Virus record (IMG/VR): IMGVR_UViG_3300028388_004019
Location: 62,001 to 126,000 of that record
From: a virus
Reading direction: 5' to 3' (one strand)
DNA: 64,000 nt
Made by a program: the position numbers and the translations under genes. The notes beneath the pieces were generated by a model. It was not told where the DNA came from, searched no databases, and was given only the letters and a program-made list of their open reading frames with translations. The number at the start of each line of letters is the position of its first letter. Position 1 is the first letter of the stretch. Shown here piece by piece: positions 1 through 50,196 of this stretch.

Positions 1-2320
1 GTTGGAGTAACACTTGCAGTGATTGTAGCAGTCACAGACGGTGTTGGAGTATTTGATGTTGTAGGAGTAACGGAGGCCGTTGGAGTTACTGACGATGTCG
101 GAGTAACAGACGCAGTTTGTGTTACCGTTTGAGTCGGTGTAGATGTTGGAGTTACCCCTGGAGTCTCAGATGGTGTTACCGTTTGAGTCTGAGTAACCGT
201 CGGTGTAATAGTTGCCGTTACCGTTGGTGTAATAGAAGCGGTAGGAGTAACAGATGATGTAACTGTCGCAGTAACTGATGGGGTTGGAGTATTTGACGTT
301 GTAGGTGTAACCGATGCTGTTGGTGTAACTGATGAAGTAGGAGTATTAGAAGGTGTTACCGTAACTGTAGAAGTTGGTGTAGATGTCGGAGTAACACCTG
401 GCGTTTCAGAAGGAGTTACAGTTTGTGTTGGCGTGAATGTTGGTGTAACTGTAGCAGTTACGGTCGGTGTAATACTTGCCGTTGGTGTTACACTCGCAGT
501 TATAGTTGCAGTTACCGATGGTGTTACTGTTTGAGTAGGAGTTACTGATGCAGTTGGTGTAACTGATGAAGTAGGAGTTACTGAAGCCGTCACCGTTTGA
601 GTTGGTGTGATTGATGCAGTTGGTGTCACACTAGCAGTCGGCGTTACAGATGAAGTAGGAGTATTTGTTTGTGTTACCGCAGGTGTTTCAGATGGTGTTA
701 CCGTTTGAGTCGGTGTGTTAGTTGGTGTCTCACTTGCCGTCAATGTTGGTGTAACAGACGCCGTTGGTGTTACCGATGCCGTTACAGTAGCAGTAACCGA
801 AGGTGTCGGAGTATTTGTAGGTGTTTCAGTAGGTGTTGGAGTTACCGATGATGTAGGCGTTACACTTGCAGTTGGAGTAACCGAAGCGGTAACCGTTTGT
901 GTTGGTGTGATAGTTGCCGTTTGAGTAACAGTTGAAGTTGGAGTATTAGTTGGCGTACTTACAGGTGTTGACGAAGCAGTAACAGTTTGTGTCGGTGTAA
1001 ATGTTGGAGTCACGGTAGAAGTGACCGTTGGAGTTATAGACGCAGTAGGAGTTACCGATGCAGTAACAGTTTGAGTAACTGTTTGAGTAGGTGTGTTTGT
1101 CGGAGTTAACGATGCTGTTGGAGTAACTGAAGATGTTGGAGTAACACTTGATGTTGGAGTAACCGAAGCAGTAACCGTTTGAGTTGGAGTAATAGTTGAC
1201 GTTTGAGTTACCGTTTGTGTTGGAGTGTTAGTTGGGGTAATTGATGGTGTCTCAGATGGAGTAACCGTCTGAGTAGGCGTAAATGTCGGAGTAACCGTGG
1301 CAGTTACCGTTGGAGTAATAGACGCAGTTGGTGTAACTGAAGCAGTAACAGTTTGTGTAACAGTCTGAGTTGGGGTATTTGTCGGTGTAATACTTGCAGT
1401 TGGAGTGACCGAACTTGTAGGTGTTACTGATGATGTTGGCGTAACCGAAGCCGTAACCGTTTGAGTTGGGGTAATAGTTGCAGTCGGTGTCAATGTAGAC
1501 GTAGGAGTATTCGTAGGTGTCACTGCTGGTGTAGAAGAAGCTGTTACCGTTTGTGTCGGAGTAAAGGTTGGAGTCACCGTTGAAGTAACAGTTGGAGTAA
1601 TAGACGCAGTAGGTGTTACCGATGCAGTAACCGTTTGAGTCACTGTTTGTGTTGGCGTATTTGTAGGTGTCAACGAGGCAGTTGGTGTAACCGAAGCAGT
1701 TGGTGTTATTGATGATGTTGGAGTAACCGAAGCAGTTACCGTTTGAGTCGGAGTTATAGTTGCAGTTTGTGTAACTGTTGATGTTGGGGTATTAGTTGGA
1801 GTAACTGCGGGGGTTGAAGAAGCAGTGACAGTTTGTGTTGGCGTAAATGTCGGAGTGACCGTGGCAGTTACCGTTGGTGTGATAGTTGCAGTTGGTGTAA
1901 ATGTTGGAGTAACCGTAGCCGTAACTGTTGGTGTTATTGAGGCAGTTGGTGTTACACTAGCGGTTGGAGTAACTGAAGATGTAGGCGTTACCGAAGCTGT
2001 CACTGTTTGTGTCGGGGTAATTGTAGCAGTTGGAGTAACTGAAGATGTTGGAGTGACTGATGATGTCGGAGTATTAGTCGGAGTGACCTCAGGCGTTGAA
2101 GATGCCGTCACAGTCTGTGTAGGGGTAAATGTTGGAGTAACCGTGGCAGTTACAGTCGGTGTAATACTTGCAGTCGGTGTTACCGACGCAGTAACAGTTT
2201 GAGTGACAGAGGCAGTTGGAGTAACCGACGCAGTAGATGTCACCGTTTGTGTTGGTGTATATGTCGGAGTAACTGAAGGTGTCGGTGTTACCGACGCAGT
2301 TGGTGTTGGTGTTGGAGTCG
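1..2320 (-). repeat. Thr/Pro/Ser low-complexity repeat tract (distal stalk)
   Basis: About 770 codons read as an alternation of TPT, SVTPT, TATVTP and TNTP-type units with almost no charged or aromatic residues. The DNA copies differ mainly at synonymous positions, which indicates selection on the protein. The composition resembles mucin or PTS linkers, a typical substrate for O-glycosylation. Confidence 0.85.
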
Positions 2321-5300
2321 GAGCAATGAATATAACCTCAACGGGACATGTACACGCACTCGTATTAACATCAGTAATACCCCAAGTACTAATAGTCTCA
2401 CCCGGAGGTAAAATGGAATTAAAATTATATTCAATTTGATGTTCATTAACCGGCATCGTTCTCACACCTGAATATGTGAATCCTGAACTACCTGTCATGA
2501 AACCTGATATCTCATAATCACATAGTGATTCTGCAGGGTCCGTTAATGCAGCATCATTCCAAAGATTAATTCTAATCTTATCACCCTGGACAATGTAACC
2601 AGCAATATACTGTGTTGTCTGTGGACATGTTGCCGATGGAGTTACCGTCTGTGTTGGAGTAATCGATGCAGTTGGAGTAATTGATGATGTCGGCGTTACA
2701 GATGCAGTCGGGGTAACCGTTTGAGTAACTGAGGCGGTTGGTGTAACACTTGCAGTCACTGTTTGTGTCGGAGTAATTGTTGCGGTTGGCGTTACTGACG
2801 ATGTTGGTGTTACAGAAGATGTTGGCGTATTAGTTGGAGTCACTGCAGGAGTTGAAGATGCAGTAACCGTTTGTGTCGGGGTAAATGTCGGAGTGACCGT
2901 GGCAGTTACCGTTGGTGTTATTGATGCAGTAGGGGTAAACGTAGGTGTTACGGTCGCAGTTACTGACGGGGTAATAGATGCCGTAGGTGTTACTGATGCA
3001 GTTGGTGTAACAGAACTTGTAGGTGTATTAGTTGGAGTAACAGTATTAGATGGTGTTACGGTATTGGTCGGAGTCACACTTGCGGTTGGTGTGACAGAAG
3101 ATGTTGGAGTATTAGTTGGTGTAACTGCAGGGGTTGAAGAAGCAGTTACTGTTTGTGTCGGAGTAACCGTCGCAGTCCTTGTAGGTGTAACCGTTGGCGT
3201 TACTGATGATGTAGGTGTAAATGTCGGGGTAACAGTTGCGGTTCTTGTCGGCGTTACCGATGGAGTAACTGTTGATGTTGCAGTTACAGACGGAGTCGGA
3301 GTAACACTTGCGGTTGGTGTTACCGATGATGTCGGAGTGTTTGTAGGAGTAACACTCGAAGTTGGTGTAACTGAAGAAGTCGGCGTATTTGTTGGAGTTA
3401 CAGTATTAGAAGGGGTAACCGTATTTGTTGGAGTCACACTCGCAGTTGGAGTAACCGACGATGTCGGTGTATTTGTGGGTGTTACCTGAGCAGTCTGTGT
3501 AGGTGTATGTGTTGGTGTTACAGTAGATGTCGCAGTTACCGATGGTGTTGGAGTAACAGATGAAGTTGGAGTTACAGAAGCAGTAGGAGTATTTGTAGGT
3601 GTTACCGTATTAGTTGGAGTAACCGATGCGGTTGGTGTTACTGATGATGTTGGTGTATTTGTCGGAGTAACACTTGCCGTTGGGGTGACAGTAGAAGTCG
3701 CAGTAACCGAAGGTGTTGGTGTATTTGATGAAGTCGGTGTATTAGTTGGAGTTACCGCTGCCGTTTGTGATGGTGTCACAGATGCAGTTGGAGTATATGT
3801 TGGAGTAACAGTCGCAGTCCTTGTTGGCGTAACAGTTGGAGTAACTGAAGACGTTGGTGTAAATGTTGGTGTAACCGTATTAGATGGAGTAACAGTATTC
3901 GATGGTGTAACTGATGATGTAGGAGTATTTGTAGGTGTAACCGTATTAGATGGAGTAACAGTATTCGATGGTGTAACTGATGATGTAGGAGTATTTGTAG
4001 GGGTAACAGTATTTGACGGAGTTACAGTATTTGTTGGAGTATACGAAGGTGTTACCGTATTTGTTGGGGTAACCGATGCAGTTGGCGTAACTGAACTGGT
4101 TGGTGTATTCGTAGGCGTAACAGTATTTGTTGGAGTATACGAAGGTGTTACCGTATTTGTTGGGGTAACCGATGCAGTTGGCGTAGCAGTTCTTGTCGGT
4201 GTCCTTGTAGGACTTACCGATATCGAAGGAGTAACTGAAGGAGTAACCGTCGCGGTTCTGGTCGGTGTTCTAGTAGGACTTACTGAAATAGAAGGCGTAA
4301 CCGTTGCAGTTCTCGTAGGGGTCCTTGTAGGTGTTCTAGTAGGACTAACCGAAATAGAAGGCGTAACCGTTGCAGTTCTGGTCGGTGTACGTGTTGGTGT
4401 TGGTGTAGGTGATGGACATGACGGACACTCCCCATAACCACAAATACTCTCAATCCAGTTTGGTGCAGGTATAAATAAATCAGGAATACCAGTACTCGTA
4501 GATGTTATCTGATAACACGCATTATTACCAAATGGATTAATAACACCATCACCCTGAAATAATACCGTACCTGATGTTGTTGACGCAATGAAAGTATCAT
4601 TAGAGTCACAACAATTAACCATTAAATACTTATCAACAGCTGGTGTTGAAGTCGGTGTCGGAGTACGAGTTGGAGTACTCGTTGGAGTTCTTGTTGGAGT
4701 TCTTGTTGGTGTACGAGTTGGTGTCGGTGGTATTGTCGTAGGTGTAGGAGTAGGTGTCGGCGTTACAGGTGTGTCACCACAACATTCTGTACATGTTTGA
4801 TATGCAGTTGCACTACAAGTCTCCACAGGTTCACAATCAGGAACAATACCTTCAACAAAGTAACAACAACCATCACAGTTATCTAACTTAACAACTTGAC
4901 CAGCATTTGGACATGGACTTATATTAAGGGATACAAATTGACCAGAGTATTGATAGTTACATGTTCCACAAGCTTCTGGGTCAATATCAATACAAGGGAT
5001 AAGGAATGCACAACAGGTTTGATTAAGATTCATTATATCATAACCAACACCAGGTTCCATACCAGGTTCATAAGGTGTTGGAGTACCCTCACCCTCACAT
5101 TCTTCACAATTATTAAATGTCTGTACTACACTACCAATAAAACTAATATTAGCTTCTGAACAATTTTCAGCACATGAACCTGACCTGAAAACCTCCCAAC
5201 AAACATTAATATTATCAACAAAAGCCTGACCTACTTGAAGATTATAAACATTTTGTATACAGGCAACAGAACTTCTCGTCCTACAATCTCTAATACAAAC

Positions 5301-5774
5301 ATAACCTACATTGTGAACAATATACCCATCTAAGATATAGTAATTAGGACCACTAAGAGAAAGGTTATAGATTGGGTCGAAAGAATATACAATCTCTTTG
5401 GATTCAACAGGTTCGTGAATAACCTCACCGTCAACCATTTTAACCATATCGTATTCACCCCCAACAACTAAACTTATGGTGGAAACAAATTGATATTTTT
5501 CTTTGGTTTTGTGGTACGCTAATACGTGTTCATCAATAACACCCAACCCATTAATCTGAAGGTAATTACCCGATTCTTCTAATATCTCGGTAACCTCAGG
5601 AGATTGGACATTATCAACATTAATGGTAGGAAATTGGACCTCACGGAAGTCAACGCCGTTAACAATTTCAGGTATATCAAAAGAAAACAGTTGGTCCCCT
5701 AATTGAATATCTTCAATATTCTTTACGGAACCATCTGATAATAATACTTTCTGTCCTAACTTATAACCTGCCAT
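1..5774 (-). CDS. Giant Hint-domain and Thr/Pro/Ser-repeat fibre/adhesin protein (partial, runs off left edge)
   Basis: The frame starting with ATG at 5774 stays open to base 1, giving at least 1,924 codons; the C-terminus lies outside the window. Residues 1-155 read as a Hint (hedgehog/intein) domain: VLLSDGSVKNIEDIQLGD at 10-27 is block A-like, DEH at 81-83 is block B-like, and YNLSLSG followed by YIVHN ending at Asn155 are blocks F and G. The block-A catalytic Cys is absent (Gly3 aligns there) and Val156 follows the Asn. Next come Cys-rich segments, a short TP linker (about 335-380), a small globular domain (about 385-445), a Thr/Pro/Ser tract (about 453-1043), a globular island (about 1044-1150, with two Cys-x-Cys-like pairs) and a second Thr/Pro/Ser tract (1150 to the edge). 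Probably a virion fibre with a mucin-like stalk. It is the last gene after the glycosyltransferase operon. Cleavage and function are inferred. Confidence 0.8.
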   Translation of the reverse strand, partial: MAGYKLGQKVLLSDGSVKNIEDIQLGDQLFSFDIPEIVNGVDFREVQFPTINVDNVQSPEVTEILEESGNYLQINGLGVIDEHVLAYHKTKEKYQFVSTISLVVGGEYDMVKMVDGEVIHEPVESKEIVYSFDPIYNLSLSGPNYYILDGYIVHNVGYVCIRDCRTRSSVACIQNVYNLQVGQAFVDNINVCWEVFRSGSCAENCSEANISFIGSVVQTFNNCEECEGEGTPTPYEPGMEPGVGYDIMNLNQTCCAFLIPCIDIDPEACGTCNYQYSGQFVSLNISPCPNAGQVVKLDNCDGCCYFVEGIVPDCEPVETCSATAYQTCTECCGDTPVTPTPTPTPTTIPPTPTRTPTRTPTRTPTSTPTRTPTPTSTPAVDKYLMVNCCDSNDTFIASTTSGTVLFQGDGVINPFGNNACYQITSTSTGIPDLFIPAPNWIESICGYGECPSCPSPTPTPTRTPTRTATVTPSISVSPTRTPTRTPTRTATVTPSISVSPTRTPTRTATVTPSVTPSISVSPTRTPTRTATPTASVTPTNTVTPSYTPTNTVTPTNTPTSSVTPTASVTPTNTVTPSYTPTNTVTPSNTVTPTNTPTSSVTPSNTVTPSNTVTPTNTPTSSVTPSNTVTPSNTVTPTFTPTSSVTPTVTPTRTATVTPTYTPTASVTPSQTAAVTPTNTPTSSNTPTPSVTATSTVTPTASVTPTNTPTSSVTPTASVTPTNTVTPTNTPTASVTPTSSVTPTPSVTATSTVTPTHTPTQTAQVTPTNTPTSSVTPTASVTPTNTVTPSNTVTPTNTPTSSVTPTSSVTPTNTPTSSVTPTASVTPTPSVTATSTVTPSVTPTRTATVTPTFTPTSSVTPTVTPTRTATVTPTQTVTASSTPAVTPTNTPTSSVTPTASVTPTNTVTPSNTVTPTNTPTSSVTPTASVTPTASITPSVTATVTPTFTPTASITPTVTATVTPTFTPTQTVTASSTPAVTPTNTPTSSVTPTSSVTPTATITPTQTVTASVTPTASVTQTVTPTASVTPTSSITPTASITPTQTVTPSATCPQTTQYIAGYIVQGDKIRINLWNDAALTDPAESLCDYEISGFMTGSSGFTYSGVRTMPVNEHQIEYNFNSILPPGETISTWGITDVNTSACTCPVEVIFIAPTPTPTPTASVTPTPSVTPTYTPTQTVTSTASVTPTASVTQTVTASVTPTASITPTVTATVTPTFTPTQTVTASSTPEVTPTNTPTSSVTPTSSVTPTATITPTQTVTASVTPTSSVTPTASVTPTASITPTVTATVTPTFTPTATITPTVTATVTPTFTPTQTVTASSTPAVTPTNTPTSTVTQTATITPTQTVTASVTPTSSITPTASVTPTASLTPTNTPTQTVTQTVTASVTPTASITPTVTSTVTPTFTPTQTVTASSTPAVTPTNTPTSTLTPTATITPTQTVTASVTPTSSVTPTSSVTPTASITPTNTPTQTVTQTVTASVTPTASITPTVTATVTPTFTPTQTVTPSETPSITPTNTPTQTVTQTSTITPTQTVTASVTPTSSVTPTSSVTPTASLTPTNTPTQTVTQTVTASVTPTASITPTVTSTVTPTFTPTQTVTASSTPVSTPTNTPTSTVTQTATITPTQTVTASVTPTASVTPTSSVTPTPTETPTNTPTPSVTATVTASVTPTASVTPTLTASETPTNTPTQTVTPSETPAVTQTNTPTSSVTPTASVTPTASITPTQTVTASVTPTSSVTPTASVTPTQTVTPSVTATITASVTPTASITPTVTATVTPTFTPTQTVTPSETPGVTPTSTPTSTVTVTPSNTPTSSVTPTASVTPTTSNTPTPSVTATVTSSVTPTASITPTVTATITPTVTQTQTVTPSETPGVTPTSTPTQTVTQTASVTPTSSVTPTASVTPTTSNTPTPSVTATITASVTP
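3868..3999 (-). repeat. Perfect 66-bp tandem duplication in the stalk coding region
   Basis: Bases 3868-3933 and 3934-3999 are identical, an in-frame duplication of 22 codons of the Thr/Pro/Val-Ser stalk. Most of this tract repeats only at the protein level, with many synonymous differences, so an exact copy points to recent slippage or unequal recombination. Confidence 0.9.
4024..4185 (-). repeat. Direct repeat of 66 bp at 96-bp spacing
   Basis: Bases 4024-4089 recur unchanged at 4120-4185. The offset of 96 bp equals 32 codons, so the frame is kept. Like the neighbouring 66-bp tandem copy, it suggests ongoing length change of the stalk. Confidence 0.85.
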
Positions 5775-5786
5775 TTACTGATACAC

Positions 5787-5809
5787 TTAACCTATAAATA
5801 ATCGGTTAA
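5787..5809 (-). promoter_or_regulatory. TATTTATA element inside a small inverted repeat before the Hint-stalk gene
   Basis: The minus strand carries TATTTATA (ATAAATA at 5794-5800 on the plus strand) 19 nt before the ATG, flanked by TTAACC and GGTTAA arms (5787-5792 and 5804-5809). The same heptamer lies 14-16 nt before several other start codons in this window, so it may be a late-type promoter element. That role is inferred. Confidence 0.35.
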
Positions 5810-5820
5810 CCCCTTTTGTA

Positions 5821-8181
5821 TCAGGATTCTTTCCTCAAACTTCCGTCGTAATGGTCAAATCTATCGTGTTCAGTCGGACTTAATAACAAGATACCTGGTT
5901 TAATGTTACCCTTGATTGTTTCTTGGAACATATAAGACATCCAAGTTTGCTCATAAGGACGAGCCCATTTCTCCGTTAAGAACATCTTTTCATTACCGTA
6001 TTTCGATACAATCTGAGGCCAGTTACAGTAATAAATCTCACCATGTGCAAATGGTATTCCTTGGAATGTGTCTATTTTAGTGATTTTAGTTTTTGGTGCG
6101 TTAGGGTCCAATCCTTGAACAGGTAGATTTGGTTTTTCTGGCCAATGTTCTTCCCTAATATGTTGTGGAACATTATACCACGCCCATTGAACCGTATTGT
6201 CACCATAAAATTCTGTATAAGATAACTTTAAGAAATCAAAGTTGTTTTTCTTTGCAATTTTTAATGAGTTTCTGTATAGATTCTTCACATATCTGTTGAA
6301 TCCATTCTTACAAACCTCACCTTGTTTTGGATAGAAGAACATATCATCTTCAAAGAAGAAATAATAATCAAATCCTCTCTCCTCAGCATCCTCAGCAACC
6401 CACTGACGACCACCACAAATACCTAAGTTGTCTTTCTTAACATAAATCATATTATATTCTTTTGCCAACTCTTCATATTCAGGTGATGTCGATAAATCTG
6501 TTGAATTATCTAAGACAACCCATTGAGGTTTCGTCACAAAATCCTCATCATATTGTTTCATCGACTCAATCAATGTTTTTATCTGATTTGGACTATTAAA
6601 TGTAATAACATATAAACCTACATTGGTAATATCTAAATCATTTTTGATTACCTCAAACCTCATCTCATCCATCGGTTTGTGTCTATCCTGTTTGACATCC
6701 TCAAAGAACTTATTAATCAACCCATTCCCTTCGATTGGGAAGTATTGGTAGTTCTCAGGGTATCTATATAACAATAAGGTAAATAGAGACTCCTCAGTAC
6801 CCATATAACCCTGATTAAGGGTGGATTTCATAATACCGTAATACTCATTATTAAAATCAGCAATATCTTCAATAGGACCACCAAAGAACCCACCACGACA
6901 AACTTTATTGACTTTAGCATTTGCAATCTCATTCATCTTATTAATCTCGAAACCGTGAATCTCAGTATTCGATTCATAAGGGAACGCAATGAAAGTCATC
7001 TTATCAATCTTTGTCAACTTATCCAATACTCTATCATGTGTAAAGTAACCTGAATGTACGGTATTAGTAATACCAGCATCCAACCAGAATAAGTGTGTTG
7101 AACCAAACTTATCCATAATCTTAGCATCGTGTAACAAATATGGTTTTGACATCACCAATGGATTGTACATATCCAATCTACCTTGAGTAGATTCTGATAA
7201 CCATCCCACCTGATTTTGCCATTCAGGGTTTGTACGAATGTTTTGAATTGGTTCATAGAATTCTCCTTTGAACCACTCTTGGCTACGACTGATGAACTGT
7301 GTTGTCTCATCTGACCTTCTCTCCATAACAAAATCCCTTAATTCCTCATCACCAAATACAATCATGTTGTAAGGTATCTTAAGAATTTCATCAAATTTTT
7401 TTAAATAATGTTCAAAACTACGTGACCAACCTTCCGCTAATTCATCACGTTTAATGTTCCATAACCCTGTTACTATAGTAATTCCGTTGTTTTCCATTTC
7501 TCCGTAAAGTTCTTTATAAATGTATTTTTTTATTCCGACGATATCTCCGCCCTCAAGACCATAAACATAATCATGTTGGTCAAATTTTTGAATGATATTT
7601 TGTTGGTCTTCTTCTTCCAAACTTCCCCACTCTATTCTAACAATCTTTGGTGAATGTCTTTCAAAATCAATTTGTTTGAAGATAACATAGTCATGACCTT
7701 CAGCATCAATTTTAATAACATCATAATCAATGATTTCATGCTTATTTAATAATGAATCTAAGGTGATTGTTGGAACCTTAATTCTCACTCCATATTTTTC
7801 TACAGTATCTCTATCACCTTCACTAGCCAAACCATTTTTTGGTGGATATATTGCACTCATACCCATAAAACAATGGTGGATATCTTTATTTTCAATAGCA
7901 AAAGGATTGATGGTTAACATTTCAACCTCACCATTTTTATCAGACACCGCAGAGTTTTCAAACTTATGTTTGTCACCCAAATTCTTCACCAGTTTATGAA
8001 AGTAATAAGGAATCGGTTCCACATATAAACCTGTGAAATCATATGCGTTGGTATACCCGATTAATTCATCAAATGTTTGTCCGTCCATCGCACCAATATT
8101 AAGTGTAAACAATTTATGTCCTTGTTTACCCAAATGGTGAAGTGCGTGATTGAAATAATCTGTTTTTTCTAATTGAATCAT
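5821..8181 (-). CDS. Three-domain fusion: FkbM-type methyltransferase, HtrL-like transferase, GT2 glycosyltransferase
   Basis: A 786-aa protein with three apparent enzymes in a row. Residues 1 to about 235 look like an FkbM-family SAM methyltransferase: a LFTLNIGAMDGQTFDEL SAM loop, YVEPIP, and VIKIDAEGHDYVIF. Residues about 235-525 look like an HtrL/YibB (WlaTC) domain, with ITIVTGLWNI at the start and LFWLDAGI as the acidic core. Residues about 525-786 look like a GT-A fold family 2 glycosyltransferase: VGLYVITFNSP, WVVLDNSTD, and the metal-binding acidic motif FFFEDDMFF. The likely job is to build and O-methylate a glycan in the cytoplasm. The ATG overlaps the stop of the upstream 60-aa ORF (TAATG). 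Domains are assigned from remembered family motifs; substrate and acceptor are unknown. Confidence 0.82.
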   Translation of the reverse strand: MIQLEKTDYFNHALHHLGKQGHKLFTLNIGAMDGQTFDELIGYTNAYDFTGLYVEPIPYYFHKLVKNLGDKHKFENSAVSDKNGEVEMLTINPFAIENKDIHHCFMGMSAIYPPKNGLASEGDRDTVEKYGVRIKVPTITLDSLLNKHEIIDYDVIKIDAEGHDYVIFKQIDFERHSPKIVRIEWGSLEEEDQQNIIQKFDQHDYVYGLEGGDIVGIKKYIYKELYGEMENNGITIVTGLWNIKRDELAEGWSRSFEHYLKKFDEILKIPYNMIVFGDEELRDFVMERRSDETTQFISRSQEWFKGEFYEPIQNIRTNPEWQNQVGWLSESTQGRLDMYNPLVMSKPYLLHDAKIMDKFGSTHLFWLDAGITNTVHSGYFTHDRVLDKLTKIDKMTFIAFPYESNTEIHGFEINKMNEIANAKVNKVCRGGFFGGPIEDIADFNNEYYGIMKSTLNQGYMGTEESLFTLLLYRYPENYQYFPIEGNGLINKFFEDVKQDRHKPMDEMRFEVIKNDLDITNVGLYVITFNSPNQIKTLIESMKQYDEDFVTKPQWVVLDNSTDLSTSPEYEELAKEYNMIYVKKDNLGICGGRQWVAEDAEERGFDYYFFFEDDMFFYPKQGEVCKNGFNRYVKNLYRNSLKIAKKNNFDFLKLSYTEFYGDNTVQWAWYNVPQHIREEHWPEKPNLPVQGLDPNAPKTKITKIDTFQGIPFAHGEIYYCNWPQIVSKYGNEKMFLTEKWARPYEQTWMSYMFQETIKGNIKPGILLLSPTEHDRFDHYDGSLRKES

Positions 8182-8363
8182 TAACTAATTACAATAAAGT
8201 TTTTCTGCCACCCTTTATACTCAGTCCAAGTCTTACCCAAAAGTTCCGCAGTTTCAACTGCAAAATTGTATTCGTCTTCTCTGTATGTATCATCCATAAT
8301 AATTGGTACTGAAGTGTCCAATCCCTTTAACTTAGGGAAAATATAATTCAAAACTATATTCAT
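8181..8363 (-). CDS. Small hypothetical protein in the glycan operon
   Basis: A 60-aa ORF that I do not recognise. Its ATG overlaps the TGA of the upstream HtrL-like gene (ATGA), and its TAA overlaps the next ATG (TAATG), so it sits in a translationally coupled chain, which is the main reason to believe it is real. It starts with a short hydrophobic stretch, has an acidic middle and ends with a hydrophobic strand. It could be a remnant of a larger transferase, since WTEYKGWQ looks like a fragment of a folded enzyme. Confidence 0.6.
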   Translation of the reverse strand: MNIVLNYIFPKLKGLDTSVPIIMDDTYREDEYNFAVETAELLGKTWTEYKGWQKNFIVIS

Positions 8364-9238
8364 AATTGTTCAAAGAATTTGTAGAAGCTGATTTTACCCT
8401 CCAAAAATTCAGGTGTGACCGATTTATCAGTTAAGTTTGAGTCATCGTGGTACCACGTATTAAACTTAAAACTATTATAATTTTCAGGTTTGTCATAAAC
8501 CATTGTAGACATCATCGCCTCATGGTTCAAAAGAAACTCCTTATCCAAACACACCTGAGCGTAATTCTCAAACCTTTCAAAAAAGTCGGGTAACTTACTC
8601 ACATGACCACCAATAATACCACCAATAGATAAAGAATCATAGTTGTGGTCTTTCTCCAAAATATCATTCAATTTTCTGTGGTCGTGGAAGAATAATGTGT
8701 TTCTAATATCAATTAATCTATCACCGACCCAATTATTGATTTTGTTAAATAATAAAGTATTGAAAATACCATCGTAAGTATACCGATATTTATTCACAGA
8801 TAATCCAGTAATTTTATCAGCATTTGAGTTATACCGTCTCGGATATAAACCAAGATGTGATAATCCACAATCTATCCAATATAGATAATCAATCCCTTCT
8901 TCCATCTCATCTTCCATCAAAGCAATTTTAGCCCATCCGACTTCCAAATAAAATTTGAATTTATCAGGATTTTTTTCTTTAATTTCAATCATCTTTTTAC
9001 TATGACGAATATCTTCAAGTTCTTTGACTTTAATTGTTACATTATCTACCTGATTTTCATCCATATAGTTTTGTAACGCTTCTGCCGTGTTAGAACCTGT
9101 ATAACAAACAATCGGTAAACCCATTTCAGATAGTTGAACCAATGAATTGATGTACCTATCCCAACGAGCTTGAACCTTATGACCAAAGAAAGGGAAATCA
9201 CCCAAACCAAAATATAAAAAAGTTACTAATTTTGTCAT
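8360..9238 (-). CDS. HtrL/YibB-like (WlaTC family) putative glycosyltransferase
   Basis: A 292-aa protein that starts with a strand (VTFLYFGLGD) and contains LEVGWAKIALM followed by YLYWIDCGLSH, the core expected of the HtrL/YibB family. It has a later GGIIGG loop. The middle domain of the 786-aa fusion downstream has the equivalent LFWLDAGI core, so the two are probably paralogous. Members of the family occur in LPS and capsule gene clusters, but few have a proven activity. It is coupled to its neighbours by ATGA overlaps on both sides. Role inferred: transfer of a sugar to a phage-made glycan or protein. Confidence 0.68.
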   Translation of the reverse strand: MTKLVTFLYFGLGDFPFFGHKVQARWDRYINSLVQLSEMGLPIVCYTGSNTAEALQNYMDENQVDNVTIKVKELEDIRHSKKMIEIKEKNPDKFKFYLEVGWAKIALMEDEMEEGIDYLYWIDCGLSHLGLYPRRYNSNADKITGLSVNKYRYTYDGIFNTLLFNKINNWVGDRLIDIRNTLFFHDHRKLNDILEKDHNYDSLSIGGIIGGHVSKLPDFFERFENYAQVCLDKEFLLNHEAMMSTMVYDKPENYNSFKFNTWYHDDSNLTDKSVTPEFLEGKISFYKFFEQL

Positions 9239-10806
9239 TTTCTAAAGTAATAATCCTCTAATAAGAGACAATCCATTTCTGTTTTATCATAGACTTTTAA
9301 AGCATCTGAGTATCTTGAAAGAATAGGTTTACCGTTCACATTGAATGATGTATTTAATAAAACACCAATTCCTGATTTCTCTTCAAACTCAGTCAATAGG
9401 TTATACAACCAAGGATTTTGTTCTTCTGTAACTGTCTGAACTCGAGCAGTACCATCAACATGAGTAATCGAAACTAATTGCTCTCTCCACTCTTCTCTTA
9501 CCGTTGGACAAAAACTCATCCATCTACTCTCACCTTCGAAATCAAAGTATTTTTCAACATCTTCTAATTTACAAACTGGTGCAAATGGTCTGTACCATTC
9601 TCTATTTTTAACCTTCGCATTTAGAATATCTTTCATATCAGGATACGCTGGATTACAAATGATACTACGATTACCTAAAGCTCTCGGTCCATGTTCTGAC
9701 GTACCTCTTACAACACCAACAATTTTTCCATTGGATAAATCATCAGTCAAACTATCCATAGTCAACTCACGTCCTCGTCTTTCTTCAACGTGAGACATTA
9801 ATGTATGTCTGTCGAGAATCGGTACACCAGCATAAGTCACGTCAACCGCAGTTGCTGGTTTCATATGATTCAAAATCATACCAGTTGCAATACCACAGTC
9901 ATTTGGGTTAGGTGGAACAAACACAGGACGGTCTAATATCTGTTGTAGTTTGGTATTAAGAAGTATGTTAAGAGCACATCCACCAACTGTAATCAACGGG
10001 ATATCAGGATATTCATCCAAGAATGGTTGAGCCATCTCCATGAAAACATTTTCGAAGGCAATTTGTGAAGTTTTAGCAACGTCCCATCCTGTTTGTCCTG
10101 TAAATCGGTTATTCATATCGAAAACCAATCCTGTTTGTTCACCTAATTCACCCAAAAAATCGATATAGTTCAAACCATCGGGTTTTCTTCTATAGTAATT
10201 TTCGAAGTGTGGTAACCAATCTTCATTTACCTCACCATAAGAACATAGTCCCATGATTTTACCAGAATATACTAAGTTACCAATATTTAATGCGGGTTCC
10301 TTACGAATATCACCCAAATAATCACCAAATGACATATAAGGGAAACCTAAATCTAAATTATATTTGTCCAATAAGGTTATAGTTTCTCTATCAGACGCAT
10401 GATATACATTGAAGAAACCGTCATTACCACCTCCATCGAAAGAGATTATCAACGCTTCATTATAATCAGTCTGATATAAACCACAAGCCGCGTGACTCAA
10501 ATGGTGAAGACAGTTGATATGTTCTTTAGCAGGAATAAGTTTTTCATAGTGAACCTTAGTTCCACTTTCTAAAGTATCTGAGTTCAAGTAATAACACTTT
10601 TCATACTCAGAAATACCATATTCATCTTCGATAAATTTCAAGATATGTTTAAGTAGATAAGGTCTTGTATATGAAACCAAATACTGAGCATAACCAGCAT
10701 TCTTTTCACTCAAAAATCTTTCTACTTCAATTACTGTAATTAATTCTCCATTCTCCTCAACCGCAACCGCCGCGTTGTGAGAACCATAAAACGCAATATT
10801 CGCCAT
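9235..10806 (-). CDS. NodU/CmcH/TobZ-type O-carbamoyltransferase
   Basis: At 523 aa this is close to the usual length of the NodU/CmcH family. The N-terminal Kae1-like half has HHLSHAA at 101-107, whose first and last histidines match the metal/ATP-binding HxxxH of the family, followed by SFDGGGNDG. VGGCALN and LLNTKL follow in the middle. The C-terminal YrdC-like half has RGTSEHGPRALGNRSI, YRPFAPV and a LLNTSFN motif. These enzymes use carbamoyl phosphate and ATP to carbamoylate hydroxyl groups of sugars; related phage enzymes have been linked to modification of hydroxymethylated bases. In a glycosyltransferase operon, a sugar hydroxyl is the more likely acceptor. The start overlaps the stop of the upstream gene by one base. 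Confidence 0.88.
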   Translation of the reverse strand: MANIAFYGSHNAAVAVEENGELITVIEVERFLSEKNAGYAQYLVSYTRPYLLKHILKFIEDEYGISEYEKCYYLNSDTLESGTKVHYEKLIPAKEHINCLHHLSHAACGLYQTDYNEALIISFDGGGNDGFFNVYHASDRETITLLDKYNLDLGFPYMSFGDYLGDIRKEPALNIGNLVYSGKIMGLCSYGEVNEDWLPHFENYYRRKPDGLNYIDFLGELGEQTGLVFDMNNRFTGQTGWDVAKTSQIAFENVFMEMAQPFLDEYPDIPLITVGGCALNILLNTKLQQILDRPVFVPPNPNDCGIATGMILNHMKPATAVDVTYAGVPILDRHTLMSHVEERRGRELTMDSLTDDLSNGKIVGVVRGTSEHGPRALGNRSIICNPAYPDMKDILNAKVKNREWYRPFAPVCKLEDVEKYFDFEGESRWMSFCPTVREEWREQLVSITHVDGTARVQTVTEEQNPWLYNLLTEFEEKSGIGVLLNTSFNVNGKPILSRYSDALKVYDKTEMDCLLLEDYYFRK

Positions 10807-12074
10807 TATAATGTACCTGTTAGTCTATCACACCATCCTTTTGAAGTTGAATAAGGCCAAACAACCCAATAAGCTGGTTTTTCAGTTATGTTAAATTGTC
10901 TCCAAACTTTACAGTAACCGTCAGGGTCATTCATCATACGGTCAATCTCTGCTCTGTCTGCATCCTTTCTGTAAATAGTGTTATCTTCCTTATCGTGGAA
11001 AGCAACAACCCAATATTCATAATCTTTCTCAGGAACTTGCTCATAACCAACATCAATACAATGTTTGTAAATAGTCGCAAAACTCTCCAACCATTCTTCT
11101 TTCGACACATATGAATCAATACCTGGGTTCGGTGGGTAGTTTTTATCTAAAGTGTATTGTTGTACACCTCTTTTACTGAATTTCAAACCTGAAAACTCTT
11201 CATATTCTTCCAAAGACCTCGTTGGACCAAACCCGTATTTACCTTCGTGACCTTCTTGAGATTCACCATCCATACCAAATAATTTTCTATTTGTTAAGTG
11301 TGAAGTATTGTTTTTACTGACCCAATCTTTATCATCATCCCATTGTTTAGTTCTACCTTTACGAGTATATTCGTGCCAAATCAAAACTTTGTGTGGATGG
11401 AACATATCATATCCCCATGTAAACGCTCTCGCCGCGATTGAAATCTCTTCCCCGTGGAAGTAGTACTCAGGATTGTGTTGAACCTCATTACTGAATTCAC
11501 CCAATGTGAAGCAGAAATGTGCCGAGTAAAATCTTGCAGGAACAGGTGTATCCAATTCTCTCCAACCTGGTATAGTCTCAGGTAAAAAGAATACCGCACC
11601 TTCAGGAATGAAACGGTCAAAGACCATTCTCCACGGTTCTTGCACTCTCGCCGCTGGGTCATTATCAGGGTCAAATGATGAAACATAACCTGTCAATAAA
11701 GGTTTCGGAATACCCATACCTTGTAAATCTTTGACCATCTTAATCATCTCCACGTCCCAATTTTTCTCAAATCTCATGTGTGAATCAATCTGTAATGTAT
11801 ACATTTCCCCGTCATACATCTGTTGAATCTGATTTCTTGCCCAACAGGCACCTTTAGACTCTTCATAAGGAACATCCATTATTCTGAATCTCTCATCATC
11901 ACGGTACTTGTCAAGGTTATCAAATCCATCTTCAGGATGGTATTGTCTACAAATCCCCAATATAACATTTTGGGGTCTTTTTGCGTTTTTTAACATATCT
12001 TCTATAGTTGGGACCAACTCAGGGTCTCGATATGACGCAATCTGTACGAAAATTTTCTGTGCTCTTCTTGCCAT
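10806..12074 (-). CDS. Glycosyltransferase of the GlcNAc (PF11397) type
   Basis: A 422-aa protein from the ATG at 12074; a longer reading would need TTG at 12104 and adds a poorly placed hydrophobic leader. IFVQIASYRDPELVPTI near the N-terminus, CWARNQIQ, LQIDSHMRF (DxD-like) and FHGEEISIAARAFTWGYD match the family that includes the Dictyostelium Skp1 hydroxyproline GlcNAc transferase and many bacterial and viral relatives. It probably adds a sugar, possibly GlcNAc, to a protein or glycan. It heads a leftward five-gene operon with one- to four-base overlaps and lies next to fibre genes rich in Thr, Pro and Ser. The acceptor is not visible from sequence. Confidence 0.8.
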   Translation of the reverse strand: MARRAQKIFVQIASYRDPELVPTIEDMLKNAKRPQNVILGICRQYHPEDGFDNLDKYRDDERFRIMDVPYEESKGACWARNQIQQMYDGEMYTLQIDSHMRFEKNWDVEMIKMVKDLQGMGIPKPLLTGYVSSFDPDNDPAARVQEPWRMVFDRFIPEGAVFFLPETIPGWRELDTPVPARFYSAHFCFTLGEFSNEVQHNPEYYFHGEEISIAARAFTWGYDMFHPHKVLIWHEYTRKGRTKQWDDDKDWVSKNNTSHLTNRKLFGMDGESQEGHEGKYGFGPTRSLEEYEEFSGLKFSKRGVQQYTLDKNYPPNPGIDSYVSKEEWLESFATIYKHCIDVGYEQVPEKDYEYWVVAFHDKEDNTIYRKDADRAEIDRMMNDPDGYCKVWRQFNITEKPAYWVVWPYSTSKGWCDRLTGTL

Positions 12075-12354: not shown

Positions 12355-15300
12355 TTATTGTTGTGTATATTCAACTTCAATCTTATCAACATCAATTCTT
12401 TCCGCCTGAATAAAGTAGTAACAGTCAATCTTATTACTGAATAGGTTACCATTCTGAATATATACCACCCAATCCTTAATCTCTTTAACATATAAGTTTT
12501 GGTGTGAACCTACTGAGGTCAACTGAACAGTAATTGAATCAGGGTCAACCAAATCCTTCCAATATTCAGGAAGTTCGATTTCCTTATCATTCAATTGTCT
12601 ACCTCTAATATAGATACCGTGTTCAGGACCCTCCAAGTTACCATGCTTCAACCTCATACCCTGTTCTTTCTTCTCAGAGTTCGGGTGTGGAATGTCGAAG
12701 GCTTTGGATGTTGCCATTAAGTTTCCTTGACCGTCTACACTAAATACTCTTGCTCCACCCGCCTCATAACCTGAAACAAGGAATGTATTTGGGTCTGATG
12801 AATCCAATTCTAATACATTATCATAAGTTTCGTCGGCTTCAATCATAACTCTTGTTAAACTTCTGTTAGCCTGTGTAGTTTTTCTAAATTTCGTATTAGC
12901 CGCTCCTGTAGTTTTGAATTCTAAATTATTACCGTTTTGTGTAACTGTTCTGGCTGCCGATAAAGTTCCATCAGAACTATAGATATTCGTATTACCTGCG
13001 GAAGTTATATATCCAGCATCATTATTAAATCCACTGTTATTAATGTTACCTTTGGTAAGTTTCTTTTGATTGTTTGATGAATCAACCACCACAAAGAAAT
13101 CACCATCATCATTCGAAGTCGATGTAGTCAATTCAGATAAATCAACAGAGATAGTATCAGCGGCGACATCAATACCTGTACCAGCACCTACGTTTAGAGT
13201 TATAGAACTACCCAAAGAAACAGAACCACCGTTAGTAAGACCATTTCCTGCGAAAACCGTAAGTGAAGAATTTGCCAATGAAGAGTTAGGTACATTAGAT
13301 AATCCTAAGGCTATCGTACCACTTGTTGTAATTGGTGACCCTGAATCCACATCTATACCATCAGACCCTGAGATTGCTACTGAGGTCACAGTACCACTCG
13401 AATTCGTATATGGTAAGTCAGATATCAAACCTTTCTTAACATTATTGTCCGTGGCATCGTGATAGATGATAGTATCAGTAAGTGCAATGCCTGTACCTTC
13501 TAAATCCGTTGCAGAATTTATAAAGTTATTAGTACCCGAGTAATCTAATCCAACAGTATTAGCCGCTACAGAAACACCCGTACCTGCACCTACATTTAAG
13601 GTTGTCGAACCACCCAATGAAACAGAACCACCGTTAGTAAGACCATTTCCTGCGGTTACCGTAAGTGAAGAATTTGCAAGTTTCGCATTGGTTACATTAG
13701 CATCTGTAATCTTTACAGTAGTTACTGCATTTGTGGCTAATTCAGCGGTATTGACGACACCCGCATCAATCGAAGCATTTAATTGTACGTCCGTAGAACC
13801 ATCGAAGGAAATTGCTGATGCGGTAATATCACCTGTAATCGAGAAGTTTCTCGGTGCTTCTAAGGTTGTTGCGGTTCCAGCATTACCATCAAGATTTCCT
13901 TGTACATCACCTGTAAGTGGACCAGTTATGGAGTTGAAAGATACATCATCACCCGTGGCTACTGATTGGTCTTGACCACCCAAATATCCCCATTGTGCTG
14001 CTGATATCGTAGTTGTACCGATATTTGCTAATTGAGTAGCCTCTGCCGATGTCATTGAAACACCTTGAATCTTAGTGACTGTACCGTTTAATGAAACGTT
14101 ACCAGTACCATCGAAAGATACATTGGATGCCGTAACATCTCCAGTAATTGAAAAGTTTCTTGCAGTCTCAAGTGCTGTCGCGGTGTCCGCATTTCCAGTG
14201 ACATCACCTGTCACATTACCAGTAACATTACCAGTAACATTACCTGTAAGGTTACCACTGAAGGCTGTAGATGTAACCGAAGTGAGACCTGCGAGTGTTG
14301 TTGAGGACGCACCTAAATCAATACTTGTACTACCAATAGTCACACTGTCATTTGATAAAGCACTATTTGGAATGTTTGACCAAAAACCTGTAATATCTTG
14401 TGCTGAAGAACCATCATTCAACCCTAAAGAGAGACTTCCTGAAGTGAAGGTTCCACCTGTTACATATGTATTAACGGAATTACCTACTGTTAAATCAATC
14501 GTATCTGTTCCTGAATTACCCACAATGGTTACAGTACTGTCAGAAGACGTAAAGTTCAGAGTACCACCCAATGGTACAACAGGGTCAGAACCTGAAGGTG
14601 CATTCACAGTAAATGACGAATTTGAAAGTGAAGAATTAGGTACATTTGATAAACCTAAGGCTATTGTACCGTTTGTCGTAATCGGCGAACCTGAATCAAC
14701 ATCAATACCATCTGAACCTGAAATTGCTACCGAAGTTACAGTACCTTGATTATTTGAAAACGGTAAAGCTAAAACATCATAATATAATACATTGTTAGAT
14801 GCATTACTAACAGGTATGTGCCATGATGTTTGTATGTCACCAGTACCTGCTCCTGAGGCTAAAATATAATTGTCTGTTCCTGCGTAGTCGAGAGCTACAT
14901 CATTCGTGTTTACTACGATACCAGTACCCGCACCCACATTCAATGTAGTTGAACCACCTAAGGAAACTGAACCTCCATTGGCTAAACCATTACCAGCACT
15001 TACCGTAAGTGAAGAATTTGCAAGTTGAGAATTAGTTATCTGTCCATTACTTACATCAGCAATGATGTCATCACCAGTAATTTGACCACCTAATGAGATG
15101 TCAGAACCCGCAATATCAATCGATGAATTAGCTAATGAAGTATTTGGAACATTAGATAAACCTAAAGTAATTGTTCCACTTGTTGTTATTGGTGAACCTG
15201 AATCAACGTCAATACCATCAGTACCACTAATAGCTACTGAAGTAACTGTACCTGAGTTATTAGAGAATGGTAAATCAGAAATTAAACCTTTCTTAACATT

Positions 15301-15744
15301 ATTATCTGTAGCATCGTGGTAAACAATAGTATCAGAAGTTGCGATTGAAGTTCCTTCTAAGTTAGTTGCCGAGTCAATAAAGTTGTTTGTTCCCGAATAA
15401 TCAAGAGCCACATCATTAGCGTTTACAACTATACCTGTTCCTGCACCAACGTTAAGTGTTACAGAACCGCCTAAAGAAACTGAACCTCCGTTCGCTAAAC
15501 CTGAACCCGCAGTCACTGTAAGTGAAGAATTGTCTAAAGATGCGTTTGGAATAGTGCCGAAAGAGAGAGCGCCCGAACCATTAGTCAATAATACCTCATC
15601 AGCAGACCCATCTGAAGTTGGGAATGTATATGCTGAATTAAATTCTATAACACCACCCGTTGAAATGTTGATACGGGTAGTCGTATTTGTTCTAAGATTC
15701 AATCCTGAACTATTACTATAATAAACTCCGTTATGGTTTGCCAT
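12355..15744 (-). CDS. Large repetitive tail fibre protein
   Basis: A 1129-aa, Gly/Ser/Thr/Asn-rich, beta-type fibre. It holds several copies of a module with GTVTSVAISG, GIDVDSGSPITT and SLTVTAGNGLTNGGSVSLGG, and a module with RNFSITGDVTASNVSFDG and LTGNVTGNVTGNV. The last roughly 130 residues form a distinct C-terminal domain (AFDIPHP, HGNLEGPEHGIYIRGR, IELPEYWKDLVDPDSITVQL) that I recall from fibre or structural proteins of marine T4-like phages and algal viruses. It is the last gene of the leftward fibre operon and ends at the bidirectional terminator. Shared modules with the next fibre gene suggest duplication. The receptor is unknown. Confidence 0.8.
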   Translation of the reverse strand: MANHNGVYYSNSSGLNLRTNTTTRINISTGGVIEFNSAYTFPTSDGSADEVLLTNGSGALSFGTIPNASLDNSSLTVTAGSGLANGGSVSLGGSVTLNVGAGTGIVVNANDVALDYSGTNNFIDSATNLEGTSIATSDTIVYHDATDNNVKKGLISDLPFSNNSGTVTSVAISGTDGIDVDSGSPITTSGTITLGLSNVPNTSLANSSIDIAGSDISLGGQITGDDIIADVSNGQITNSQLANSSLTVSAGNGLANGGSVSLGGSTTLNVGAGTGIVVNTNDVALDYAGTDNYILASGAGTGDIQTSWHIPVSNASNNVLYYDVLALPFSNNQGTVTSVAISGSDGIDVDSGSPITTNGTIALGLSNVPNSSLSNSSFTVNAPSGSDPVVPLGGTLNFTSSDSTVTIVGNSGTDTIDLTVGNSVNTYVTGGTFTSGSLSLGLNDGSSAQDITGFWSNIPNSALSNDSVTIGSTSIDLGASSTTLAGLTSVTSTAFSGNLTGNVTGNVTGNVTGDVTGNADTATALETARNFSITGDVTASNVSFDGTGNVSLNGTVTKIQGVSMTSAEATQLANIGTTTISAAQWGYLGGQDQSVATGDDVSFNSITGPLTGDVQGNLDGNAGTATTLEAPRNFSITGDITASAISFDGSTDVQLNASIDAGVVNTAELATNAVTTVKITDANVTNAKLANSSLTVTAGNGLTNGGSVSLGGSTTLNVGAGTGVSVAANTVGLDYSGTNNFINSATDLEGTGIALTDTIIYHDATDNNVKKGLISDLPYTNSSGTVTSVAISGSDGIDVDSGSPITTSGTIALGLSNVPNSSLANSSLTVFAGNGLTNGGSVSLGSSITLNVGAGTGIDVAADTISVDLSELTTSTSNDDGDFFVVVDSSNNQKKLTKGNINNSGFNNDAGYITSAGNTNIYSSDGTLSAARTVTQNGNNLEFKTTGAANTKFRKTTQANRSLTRVMIEADETYDNVLELDSSDPNTFLVSGYEAGGARVFSVDGQGNLMATSKAFDIPHPNSEKKEQGMRLKHGNLEGPEHGIYIRGRQLNDKEIELPEYWKDLVDPDSITVQLTSVGSHQNLYVKEIKDWVVYIQNGNLFSNKIDCYYFIQAERIDVDKIEVEYTQQ

Positions 15745-15780
15745 TTTATATGTTTTCTCTTTCTTTTATTTTTTGGCTAT

Positions 15781-15800
15781 GGGGGAGGGTTAACTCCCCC
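15781..15800. other. GC-rich hairpin in a fibre intergenic gap
   Basis: GGGGGAG (15781-15787) pairs perfectly with CTCCCCC (15794-15800) around a six-base loop, in an otherwise AT-rich gap between two fibre genes. No clear T run follows on either strand, so it is a weak candidate for termination and may instead protect or process the mRNA. Confidence 0.55.
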
Positions 15801-15848
15801 AATCATATCTAATGATAAATACTTTTCAAATAATTTATAGTGTATAAA

Positions 15849-23522: not shown

Positions 23523-23551
23523 CCTAATAAATTACTTTACTTTTTATTAGG
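23523..23551 (-). terminator. AT-rich hairpin at the stop codon of the 2234-aa gene
   Basis: CCTAATAAA (23523-23531) pairs with TTTATTAGG (23543-23551) around an 11-nt loop, starting at the TAA stop of the upstream gene. The stem is weak and the T run is poor, so it may be a partial terminator or an mRNA end structure. Confidence 0.35.
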
Positions 23552-47008: not shown

Positions 47009-47027
47009 TTTATTTTTCGTTATTTAA

Positions 47028-48308
47028 TTAGAATAAATCGTTTGATGTAATCGATTTAGATTTCTTACTGTAGTTAATACTTCTTTTGTTGAAGAAATCA
47101 GTGTGTTTAGTAGTTAAGATTTCATCGTCAAACCACTCAGTTGTTTCCAACAACGGTTCGTTGATTTCAAAAATACTATCTACACCAATGGAGTTTAATG
47201 ATACATTAAATCTATGTTTAATAAATTCCATTGTCTGACTTTTCGTTAGGAAATCTAAATCACCTTCTTCAAATATCCAATTAACTATTTCTGTTTCTGC
47301 CTCATACGCTTCCATTGTTGCCGCGATAAGGTCTTCTTTTAATTCATCCGTCCACCATGATGGGTTCTCTCCTTTGATAAGGTTTACCAAATCAAATCCA
47401 AATCCAGCATGGATGTTTTCTTCTTTCGATGTTGCTTCAACAGCGTTACTAATACCCTTCAACATGTTCTTATGTTTGTTGAATGACATAATAACTAAAA
47501 ACTGTGAGAACAACGATACATTCTCTACAAACATAGAGAACAATACTACAGATTCAAAGTATTCTTTATCTTCCACTGCTTTTGAGTTAGAGATTGCTTT
47601 CTCCAAATACTTAATTCTTCTACGGATTGCAGGTACCTCGAGTAATGTTTCGAAGTCAGCGTTCAACCCTAAAAGTTGAATTAAGTGTGAGTAAGCGTCA
47701 GCGTGTCTAACCTCAGACTCCGCAAATGTTGCACCTACATTACCAATTTCAGGTTTTGGCATCCTTTTGTAGATGTCACCCCAAAACGTTTTAACGGCAA
47801 TCTCAATTTGTGAGATAGCCAACATCGCTCTCTTTACCGCAGTTTTTTCTTTCTTATCCAAGTTTACTTTGAAATCTTGAATGTCTGAAGTAAAGTTAAA
47901 CTCTGTATGTACCCAATATGAATGTCTGATAGCATCCACATATTCATTAAGATTTGGATATTCGTAAGGTTTAAGATTTGTTCTCTTGGTAAAGATATTT
48001 GGACCGTGATTTTTACGATAAATGATATATTCTTTAGCGACATCATTAAGACCGTTGTCCATCAACTTATTCTCCACCATATCGTGAATTTCATCCACGT
48101 GAGGTACTTTATCTTTTTCATCTCTGAAAATTCCTTTACGAGTGATTCTTGCAATTTTCTCAGCCATTTCATCATCAACTTCACCGACAGACTTCATAGC
48201 CTTCAGTACCGCATATTTGATTTTTTCCGCTTCGAAAAGTACTTGTTCACCACTTCTCTTAATTACATAACGAGTTTCTTTACTGTTCATAGCACTATTG
48301 TTAACCAT
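47028..48308 (-). CDS. nrdB: Class I ribonucleotide reductase small subunit with N-terminal ATP-cone
   Basis: A 426-aa protein. Residues about 12-105 read as an ATP-cone (YVIKRSGEQVLFEAEKIKYA, HVDEIHDMVE, VAKEYIIYR). The radical-generating domain follows, with metal ligands Glu169, Glu199-x-x-His202, Glu262 and Glu297-x-x-His300. Tyr206 is at the position of the radical Tyr122 of E. coli, so a tyrosyl-radical class is possible. ATP-cones usually sit on NrdA; a cone on NrdB has been described for Bacteroidetes such as Leeuwenhoekiella blandensis, where dATP binding drives NrdB into inactive tetramers. The start may instead be at Met7. It sits 13 bases below the helicase stop, in the replication operon. 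Confidence 0.93.
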   Translation of the reverse strand: MVNNSAMNSKETRYVIKRSGEQVLFEAEKIKYAVLKAMKSVGEVDDEMAEKIARITRKGIFRDEKDKVPHVDEIHDMVENKLMDNGLNDVAKEYIIYRKNHGPNIFTKRTNLKPYEYPNLNEYVDAIRHSYWVHTEFNFTSDIQDFKVNLDKKEKTAVKRAMLAISQIEIAVKTFWGDIYKRMPKPEIGNVGATFAESEVRHADAYSHLIQLLGLNADFETLLEVPAIRRRIKYLEKAISNSKAVEDKEYFESVVLFSMFVENVSLFSQFLVIMSFNKHKNMLKGISNAVEATSKEENIHAGFGFDLVNLIKGENPSWWTDELKEDLIAATMEAYEAETEIVNWIFEEGDLDFLTKSQTMEFIKHRFNVSLNSIGVDSIFEINEPLLETTEWFDDEILTTKHTDFFNKRSINYSKKSKSITSNDLF

Positions 48309-50194: not shown

Positions 50195-50196
50195 AA

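Follow-up and report, generated by a model that had tools for sequence, protein, structure and literature searches.

A modular phage gene cassette that probably directs mucin-type O-glycosylation of Thr/Pro-rich fibre stalks

A stretch of 64,000 nucleotides (hereafter the window) corresponding to bases 62001–126000 of the 183,755-base IMG/VR virus record IMGVR_UViG_3300028388_004019, named G000 in this work, was analyzed. It comes from a large phage of freshwater type and contains a cassette of five minus-strand genes (window 5821–12074) located between fibre genes and a gene encoding a long stalk rich in Thr and Pro (TP stalk). Probably, the cassette serves to attach mucin-type O-glycans to the TP stalks of the same phage in the host cytoplasm. 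Consecutive genes overlap by 1, 4, 4 and 1 bases; five leftward genes of these families with overlaps of one to four bases had been proposed from the sequence alone, and the coordinates and the Pfam and PHROG matches agree with this original prediction. From the gene content and its distribution we infer the enzyme activities, the acceptor, the order of steps and the benefit to the phage (protection, stiffness or binding).

The first gene of the cassette (10806–12074, minus strand; 422 aa) encodes a polypeptide N-acetylglucosamine (GlcNAc) transferase-like protein, GlcNAcT, that matches the PF11397 profile with 230.8 bits at a cut-off of 21 (Pfam E-value 4.3e-68) and phrog_24687 with 8e-167. 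PF11397 corresponds to glycosyltransferase (GT) family GT60 of CAZy, retaining GT-A enzymes putting GlcNAc on protein; TcOGNT1 of T. cruzi forms GlcNAc-alpha-Thr on mucin-like proteins, and GT60 also initiates mucin-type O-glycosylation (PMC9472816, PMC3188802). Other polypeptide alpha-GlcNAc transferases of this family are the mucin initiator of Dictyostelium and Gnt1, acting on hydroxyproline of Skp1. The original prediction relied on the hydroxyproline precedent from Dictyostelium; the family was recognized correctly, but the initiation of mucin-type glycans on Thr is the stronger precedent.

Instead of DxD, GT60 and the animal mucin enzymes of GT27 share a DxH signature (PMC7185993), and a DxH motif of this type, Asp97-Ser98-His99, was found in GlcNAcT (11778–11786, minus strand). 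It is invariant in 31 phage sequences and is also present in the jumbo phages XacN1 and RAS14. In a Foldseek search with a weak structural model of GlcNAcT, GT-A enzymes were among the best PDB matches, human ppGalNAc-T2 being found repeatedly among the 50 best; profile searches of PDB sequences with alignments of GlcNAcT and of the last cassette protein gave no match. GlcNAcT resembles the known GT60 enzymes in its Pfam family (4e-68), its DxH motif and its Thr/Pro-rich, mucin-like partners. Unlike them, it is phage-encoded, soluble to judge by its sequence and located in an operon with extending and tailoring enzymes, and its acceptor and linkage are putative.

The last gene (5821–8181, minus strand) is a fusion in which three domains were distinguished. 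An FkbM methyltransferase domain (7561–8097, minus strand; Pfam 8.9e-18), present only in some relatives, occupies the N-terminus and is followed by an HtrL_YibB domain modelled as GT-A-like (6742–7482, minus strand; PF09612, Pfam 4.8e-13, 49.8 bits at a cut-off of 24.1, residues 234–480). The C-terminal third had no Pfam match; based on its similarity to the glycosyltransferase family phrog_2456 (4e-5) and on the predicted structure, it is predicted to be a second GT-A-type, GT2-like domain (5824–6627, minus strand), and its Glu-Asp-Asp (E611 D612 D613) is invariant. The model of the fusion (pLDDT 86) matched glycosyltransferases in the PDB, with the collagen galactosyltransferase COLGALT1 and LH3, each having several GT-A-type domains, at the top. 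Since the whole-chain TM-scores were low, this match supports the fold class and not the substrate.

Between these ends the window phage carries three genes. The first of them (9235–10806, minus strand; 523 aa) encodes an O-carbamoyltransferase of the TobZ/NolO type (PDB TobZ 1e-44) with both domains, Carbam_trans_N (7e-18) and Carbam_trans_C (5.8e-64), and with HHLSH and FDGGG, which we take to be motifs of this family. The second (8360–9238, minus strand; 292 aa) encodes an HtrL-like putative glycosyltransferase that weakly resembles the HtrL part of the last cassette protein (E 1e-4) and ORF332 of XacN1 (1e-29); its match to the PF09612 profile does not reach 0.01. The third is an open reading frame (ORF) of 60 aa (8181–8363, minus strand) resembling part of a 175-aa gene located at the same place in a related locus, L012. 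In none of the five cassette proteins did we find a hydrophobic 19-residue segment above a Kyte–Doolittle (KD) value of 1.4; such segments would be expected in the membrane-bound flippases and transferases of serotype-converting (Gtr) surface modification.

To judge by the 395 pattern-matched relatives of the first gene alone in IMG/VR, the cassette initiator is common among viruses. We studied the layout of 82 loci, 80 of them from IMG/VR and two from XacN1 and RAS14. GlcNAcT was the first and HtrL-GT2 the last gene in 76 loci, 75 of which were wholly on one strand, and from zero to nine genes falling into 68 sequence clusters were located between them. Representatives of these middle genes matched GT25, GT10, GT11 (fucosyltransferase), GT7, FkbM, three kinds of sulfotransferases and a sugar nucleotidyltransferase; members of the 292-aa HtrL-like type occurred in 47 of the 82 loci. 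The cassette is thus modular, with conserved ends and swapped middle genes, an organization that resembles O-antigen loci. Carbamoyltransferase and FkbM genes (11/82 and 12/82 loci) are optional modules, so that methylation and carbamoylation do not belong to the core of the system as originally proposed. It should be mentioned that the phage PF11397 genes of two loci, L432 and L433, represent a third type, which lacks HtrL-GT2 and immediately follows a gene containing (TP)n linkers, and that the cyanophage locus L409 (Bellamy, 172–182 kb) is a sugar cluster with carbamoyltransferase and HtrL genes, in which neither PF11397 nor a TP stalk was found.

In whole records, TP stalks were searched for with the pattern TPTxTPT; the reversed pattern, used as a control, gave about zero matches, so the stalk motifs do not result from chance. 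The TP-stalk gene (3–5774 in the window, minus strand) is located 46 bases downstream of the cassette and extends beyond the window to G000:58412. Joined with the neighbouring stretch, it encodes 3,120 aa including 1,728 Thr/Pro/Ser (T/P/S) residues; the content of more than 1,300 such residues claimed earlier is therefore true of the full gene, while the part inside the window holds 1,087. The first stalk segment inside the window (3–2369, minus strand) consists of 68% T/P/S, and another one of 619 residues (2595–4451, minus strand) of 69%. Two more stalked fibres had been announced with stalks of about 600 and about 290 residues. Both exist, with a stalk of 622 residues (21088–22953, minus strand; 71% T/P/S) in gene 20548–23481 and one of 319 residues (23874–24830, minus strand; 70% T/P/S), accompanied by three short stalks, in gene 23547–30251. 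Outside the window, stalks were revealed at G000 54874–57066 (258 residues) and G000 145246–151821 (about 750 and 690 residues). In total, by the same measure, G000 has six stalk genes with approximately 5,170 stalk residues, about 2,600 of them Thr/Ser. The Thr and Pro codons of the stalks are mixed (e.g., ACA 396, ACT 352, ACG 136, ACC 69), which indicates that the repeat is maintained as protein and not as a DNA repeat. Large plus-strand ORFs at 1825–4437 are antisense shadows of the stalk repeat.

The association of the cassette with stalks was evaluated after merging near-identical loci into 27 sequence groups. In 26 groups, a TP stalk was no more than three genes away from the cassette, and in 25 it was the immediate neighbour, compared with a baseline of 7 of 148 non-stalk genes adjoining a stalk gene in G000. 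The opposite pattern, an operon occurring consistently in phages without TP stalks, was also looked for and was not seen: the motif was present in all 21 PF11397-containing records with a length of at least about 100 kb and in none of 13 large phages without PF11397, nine of which carry a carbamoyltransferase. Two near-duplicate positive records have only two matches each; because of near-duplicates the 21 records represent about 17 independent ones. Among stalk-bearing contigs, PF11397 was found in 14 of 38 with a length of at least 40 kb and in 7 of 13 with a length of at least 100 kb, and HtrL was revealed in none of 14 stalk-bearing contigs without PF11397. Carbamoyltransferase alone was considered as a tracker of stalks and rejected in view of the nine carbamoyltransferase phages without the motif; on its own it is common in stalk-less cyanophages.

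Near-duplicate records and lineage effects are the reason why Fisher tests (21/0 vs. 0/12, before Atu_ph07 was included) are not used here as evidence. A control sample collected via capsid and sheath genes consisted mostly of short contigs, which makes the same-lineage control weak. In a "random" 16-mer sample only seven contigs reached at least 40 kb, and none of these seven had stalks or PF11397. As most stalk-bearing records share one lineage, the strongest evidence comes from an independent second case.

This case is provided by the Xanthomonas jumbo phage XacN1 and the Stenotrophomonas phages RAS14 and CM1, which belong to a RaK2-like lineage unrelated to the window phage. They contain a syntenic operon (ORF334–ORF330 in XacN1) with products about 24–51% identical to those of the window, in the same order (GlcNAcT, carbamoyltransferase, HtrL, HtrL-GT2; for HtrL and HtrL-GT2 the reading covered XacN1 and RAS14). 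Stalk motifs are present in their genomes (51 in XacN1, 22 in RAS14 and 22 in CM1), and none was found in RaK2 and Atu_ph07, relatives of XacN1. The nearest relative of XacN1 is RsoM2USA. Unlike the window phage, these phages have no FkbM domain and belong to a different lineage with different hosts; their operon adjoins DNA polymerase and tail genes, and a stalk gene is not its immediate neighbour. In a FastTree phylogeny, in which support values were not examined, enzymes of the XacN1 type and of the Bacteroidota phage type formed separate clades. In XacN1, ORF350 is a stalk protein whose adjoining gene is annotated as structural. At least two glycoproteins were detected in XacN1 virions, and phage-encoded transferases including ORF334, the counterpart of the window GlcNAcT, were suggested to be responsible, as stated in the passages of PMC5852040 used here. 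The co-occurrence with stalks and these virion glycoproteins favour the glycosylation part of the original claim that the phage glycosylates, methylates and carbamoylates its own stalks.

We also studied 80 bacterial PF11397 loci. A homologue of HtrL-GT2 was present in 13 of them. The two end genes of the cassette lie side by side in bacteria and are fused into one protein in three Myxococcales genes, a fusion that speaks for a common pathway. The divergent neighbour of GlcNAcT/HtrL-GT2 encodes a T/P/S-repeat protein in Saprospiraceae and Jiulongibacter (L434:8525–9670, L440:8941–9729); both proteins have a leader with an arginine pair, and a type IX sorting domain is present in one of them. 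A leader of this twin-arginine-like kind would agree with cytoplasmic glycosylation preceding export. In the FastTree phylogeny (support values not examined), the phage clade includes the Saprospiraceae enzymes, and therefore genes have probably been transferred between phages and their hosts. In 25 of the 80 loci (L447–L501, e.g., L461, L478 and L501) PF11397 was found near type VI secretion genes (homologues of TssF, TssA and VgrG), and in Azospirillum (L478) it is located within an injection-system cluster beside Pvc16, tube and sheath genes, the sheath having a Thr/Pro insert. These relatives, lacking HtrL-GT2, may do something else.

Taking phages and bacteria together, we tentatively propose, with somewhat less than even confidence, a general mobile prokaryotic system of mucin-type O-glycosylation composed of a GT60-like initiator, an HtrL-GT2 extender, Thr/Pro-rich acceptors and tailoring genes open to exchange. 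At least two phage lineages would have acquired this system independently, and it would have passed between phages of Bacteroidota and the bacteria they infect, as the position of the Saprospiraceae genes in the phage clade and beside a gene for a TP-rich secreted protein suggests, relatives of the initiator serving other contractile machines (type VI secretion and extracellular injection systems).

In the window phage, the GT60-like enzyme would put GlcNAc on Thr/Ser, or possibly hydroxyproline, of the stalks before or during assembly of the tail fibres, and the two-domain HtrL-GT2 enzyme would then extend the sugar. The middle genes, here those for the carbamoyltransferase, the second HtrL-like transferase and the FkbM methyltransferase, would tailor it, carbamoylation and methylation coming after extension. 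As the five proteins have no membrane segments, stepwise cytoplasmic addition from nucleotide sugars is the simplest scheme. Two genes for 2-oxoglutarate (2OG)-Fe(II) oxygenases (G000 46800–48172) are located at a distance of 10–12 kb from the stalk gene, so prior hydroxylation of proline is possible. The sugar coat would make the long stalks stiffer and protect them, and it could change how the phage attaches; the exchange of middle genes between relatives suggests that it is a variable surface.

Several observations weigh against stalk glycosylation by the cassette. The structural model of GlcNAcT has a low pLDDT of 64. PF11397 is absent from 6 of the 13 stalk-bearing contigs of at least 100 kb, and in the relatives G059 and G071, which lack the cassette, none was found near the stalk genes read; thus, stalks do not require the cassette. 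Because stalks are nearly universal within the lineage, the counts over whole records reflect a small number of independent origins. Carbamoyltransferase and HtrL also occur in stalk-less cyanophage sugar clusters, and many bacterial relatives belong to type VI secretion loci in which no TP protein is obvious. A distance of about 12 kb separates the operon of XacN1 from the nearest long stalk gene, and the main text of PMC5852040, as far as it was consulted, does not name the glycosylated proteins.

The situation in XacN1 also agrees with the view that the cassette glycosylates mainly other virion proteins (tail tube, sheath, capsid or other fibre domains) and adjoins stalk genes because the fibre region is an exchange hotspot; capsid and tail-tube glycosylation is known in mycobacteriophages (cited in the passages of PMC12619734 used here). 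We regard this as unlikely given the immediate adjacency in 25 of 27 groups, the precedent of the mucin-type family for Thr-rich acceptors and the TP-rich partner genes in bacteria without a phage tail. Remodelling of host surface glycans (lipopolysaccharide or capsule), which would block superinfection or alter adsorption, appears less probable still: families of middle genes such as GT25, GT10 and GT11 also act on bacterial surface glycans and a second cluster of sugar and sulfotransferase genes is present at about 156–169 kb of the record, but the five proteins have no membrane segments, the first enzyme comes from a polypeptide-acting family and the cassette is located among late structural genes, beside stalks. 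Hypermodification of DNA, with carbamoyl-, methyl- and glycosyltransferases decorating a hydroxylated base, is very improbable, although there are phage glycosyltransferases that add diverse glycans to DNA (Pyle et al. 2024, cited in the passages of PMC12619734 used here), because no thymidylate-synthase-like or hydroxymethylase homologue (PF00303) was found in the 184-kb, possibly incomplete record while control genomes were positive, and because the cassette is strongly linked to fibre stalks and not to replication genes; a search of the record for Tet/JBP (PF12851) was empty, which is uninformative as it had no positive control.

Glycosylation of phage virions as such is already known; the putative mucin-type initiator, the swapped middle genes and the TP-stalk partner are new. 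In mycobacteriophages (Freeman et al. 2023, via passages of PMC12619734), phage-encoded transferases act on virion proteins, as proposed here, with glycans at the C-termini of capsid and tail-tube subunits; unlike them, the window phage has a GT60-type initiator, an extender with two GT domains, exchanged middle genes and long TP stalks. Chlorella virus PBCV-1, named in the consulted part of PMC5852040, likewise supplies its own cytoplasmic glycosyltransferases, but these are different enzymes and act on a capsid protein. "Moraphages", large aquatic phages of Bacteroidota, resemble the record in that they possess glutamine synthetase, DnaJ and four core groups of glycosyltransferases; the passages of PMC12619734 on them report neither TP stalks nor the cassette. 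None of the papers in the library searched deals with phage TP stalks or phage GT60 enzymes. If the proposal is true, mucin-type O-glycosylation, usually thought to be eukaryotic, is carried by large aquatic phages, whose fibres receive a variable sugar coat. It would also explain the purpose of the long Thr/Pro stalks in many phage metagenome contigs and assign a role to the HtrL_YibB family, which is uncharacterised, as well as to the phage carbamoyltransferases accompanying it.

Some other features of the record should be mentioned. Upstream of the cassette are two fibre/tail genes (12355–18806, minus strand) without TP stalks, whose matches to PHROG tail families bear out the fibre genes predicted there. 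No megablast match to the first 25 kb of the window was found among cultured phages. The N-terminus of the stalk gene (5265–5774, minus strand) is Hint/intein-like and ends with ...DGYIVHN, with Pfam matches below the cut-off, which suggests self-processing; a protease-like gene follows the stalk gene at G000 57068–58345. In the C-terminal part of the stalk protein (G000 58412–60001), which had no Pfam match, DSSGSMD resembles the von Willebrand A metal site. The gene at G000 7096–7866, with collagen-like repeats and an endosialidase chaperone domain, represents a second type of fibre stalk that differs from the TP stalks. Genes for a TonB-dependent receptor, glutamine synthetase and DnaJ are present on the phage record at G000 16103–18634, 14215–15348 and 26773–27729. 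The second sugar cluster (G000 156390–168622) comprises genes for two sulfotransferases, an aminotransferase, a UDP-sugar dehydrogenase, GT-D, GT1 and GT2, and a further sulfotransferase-like gene, judged by eye, is located at G000 50024–50638.

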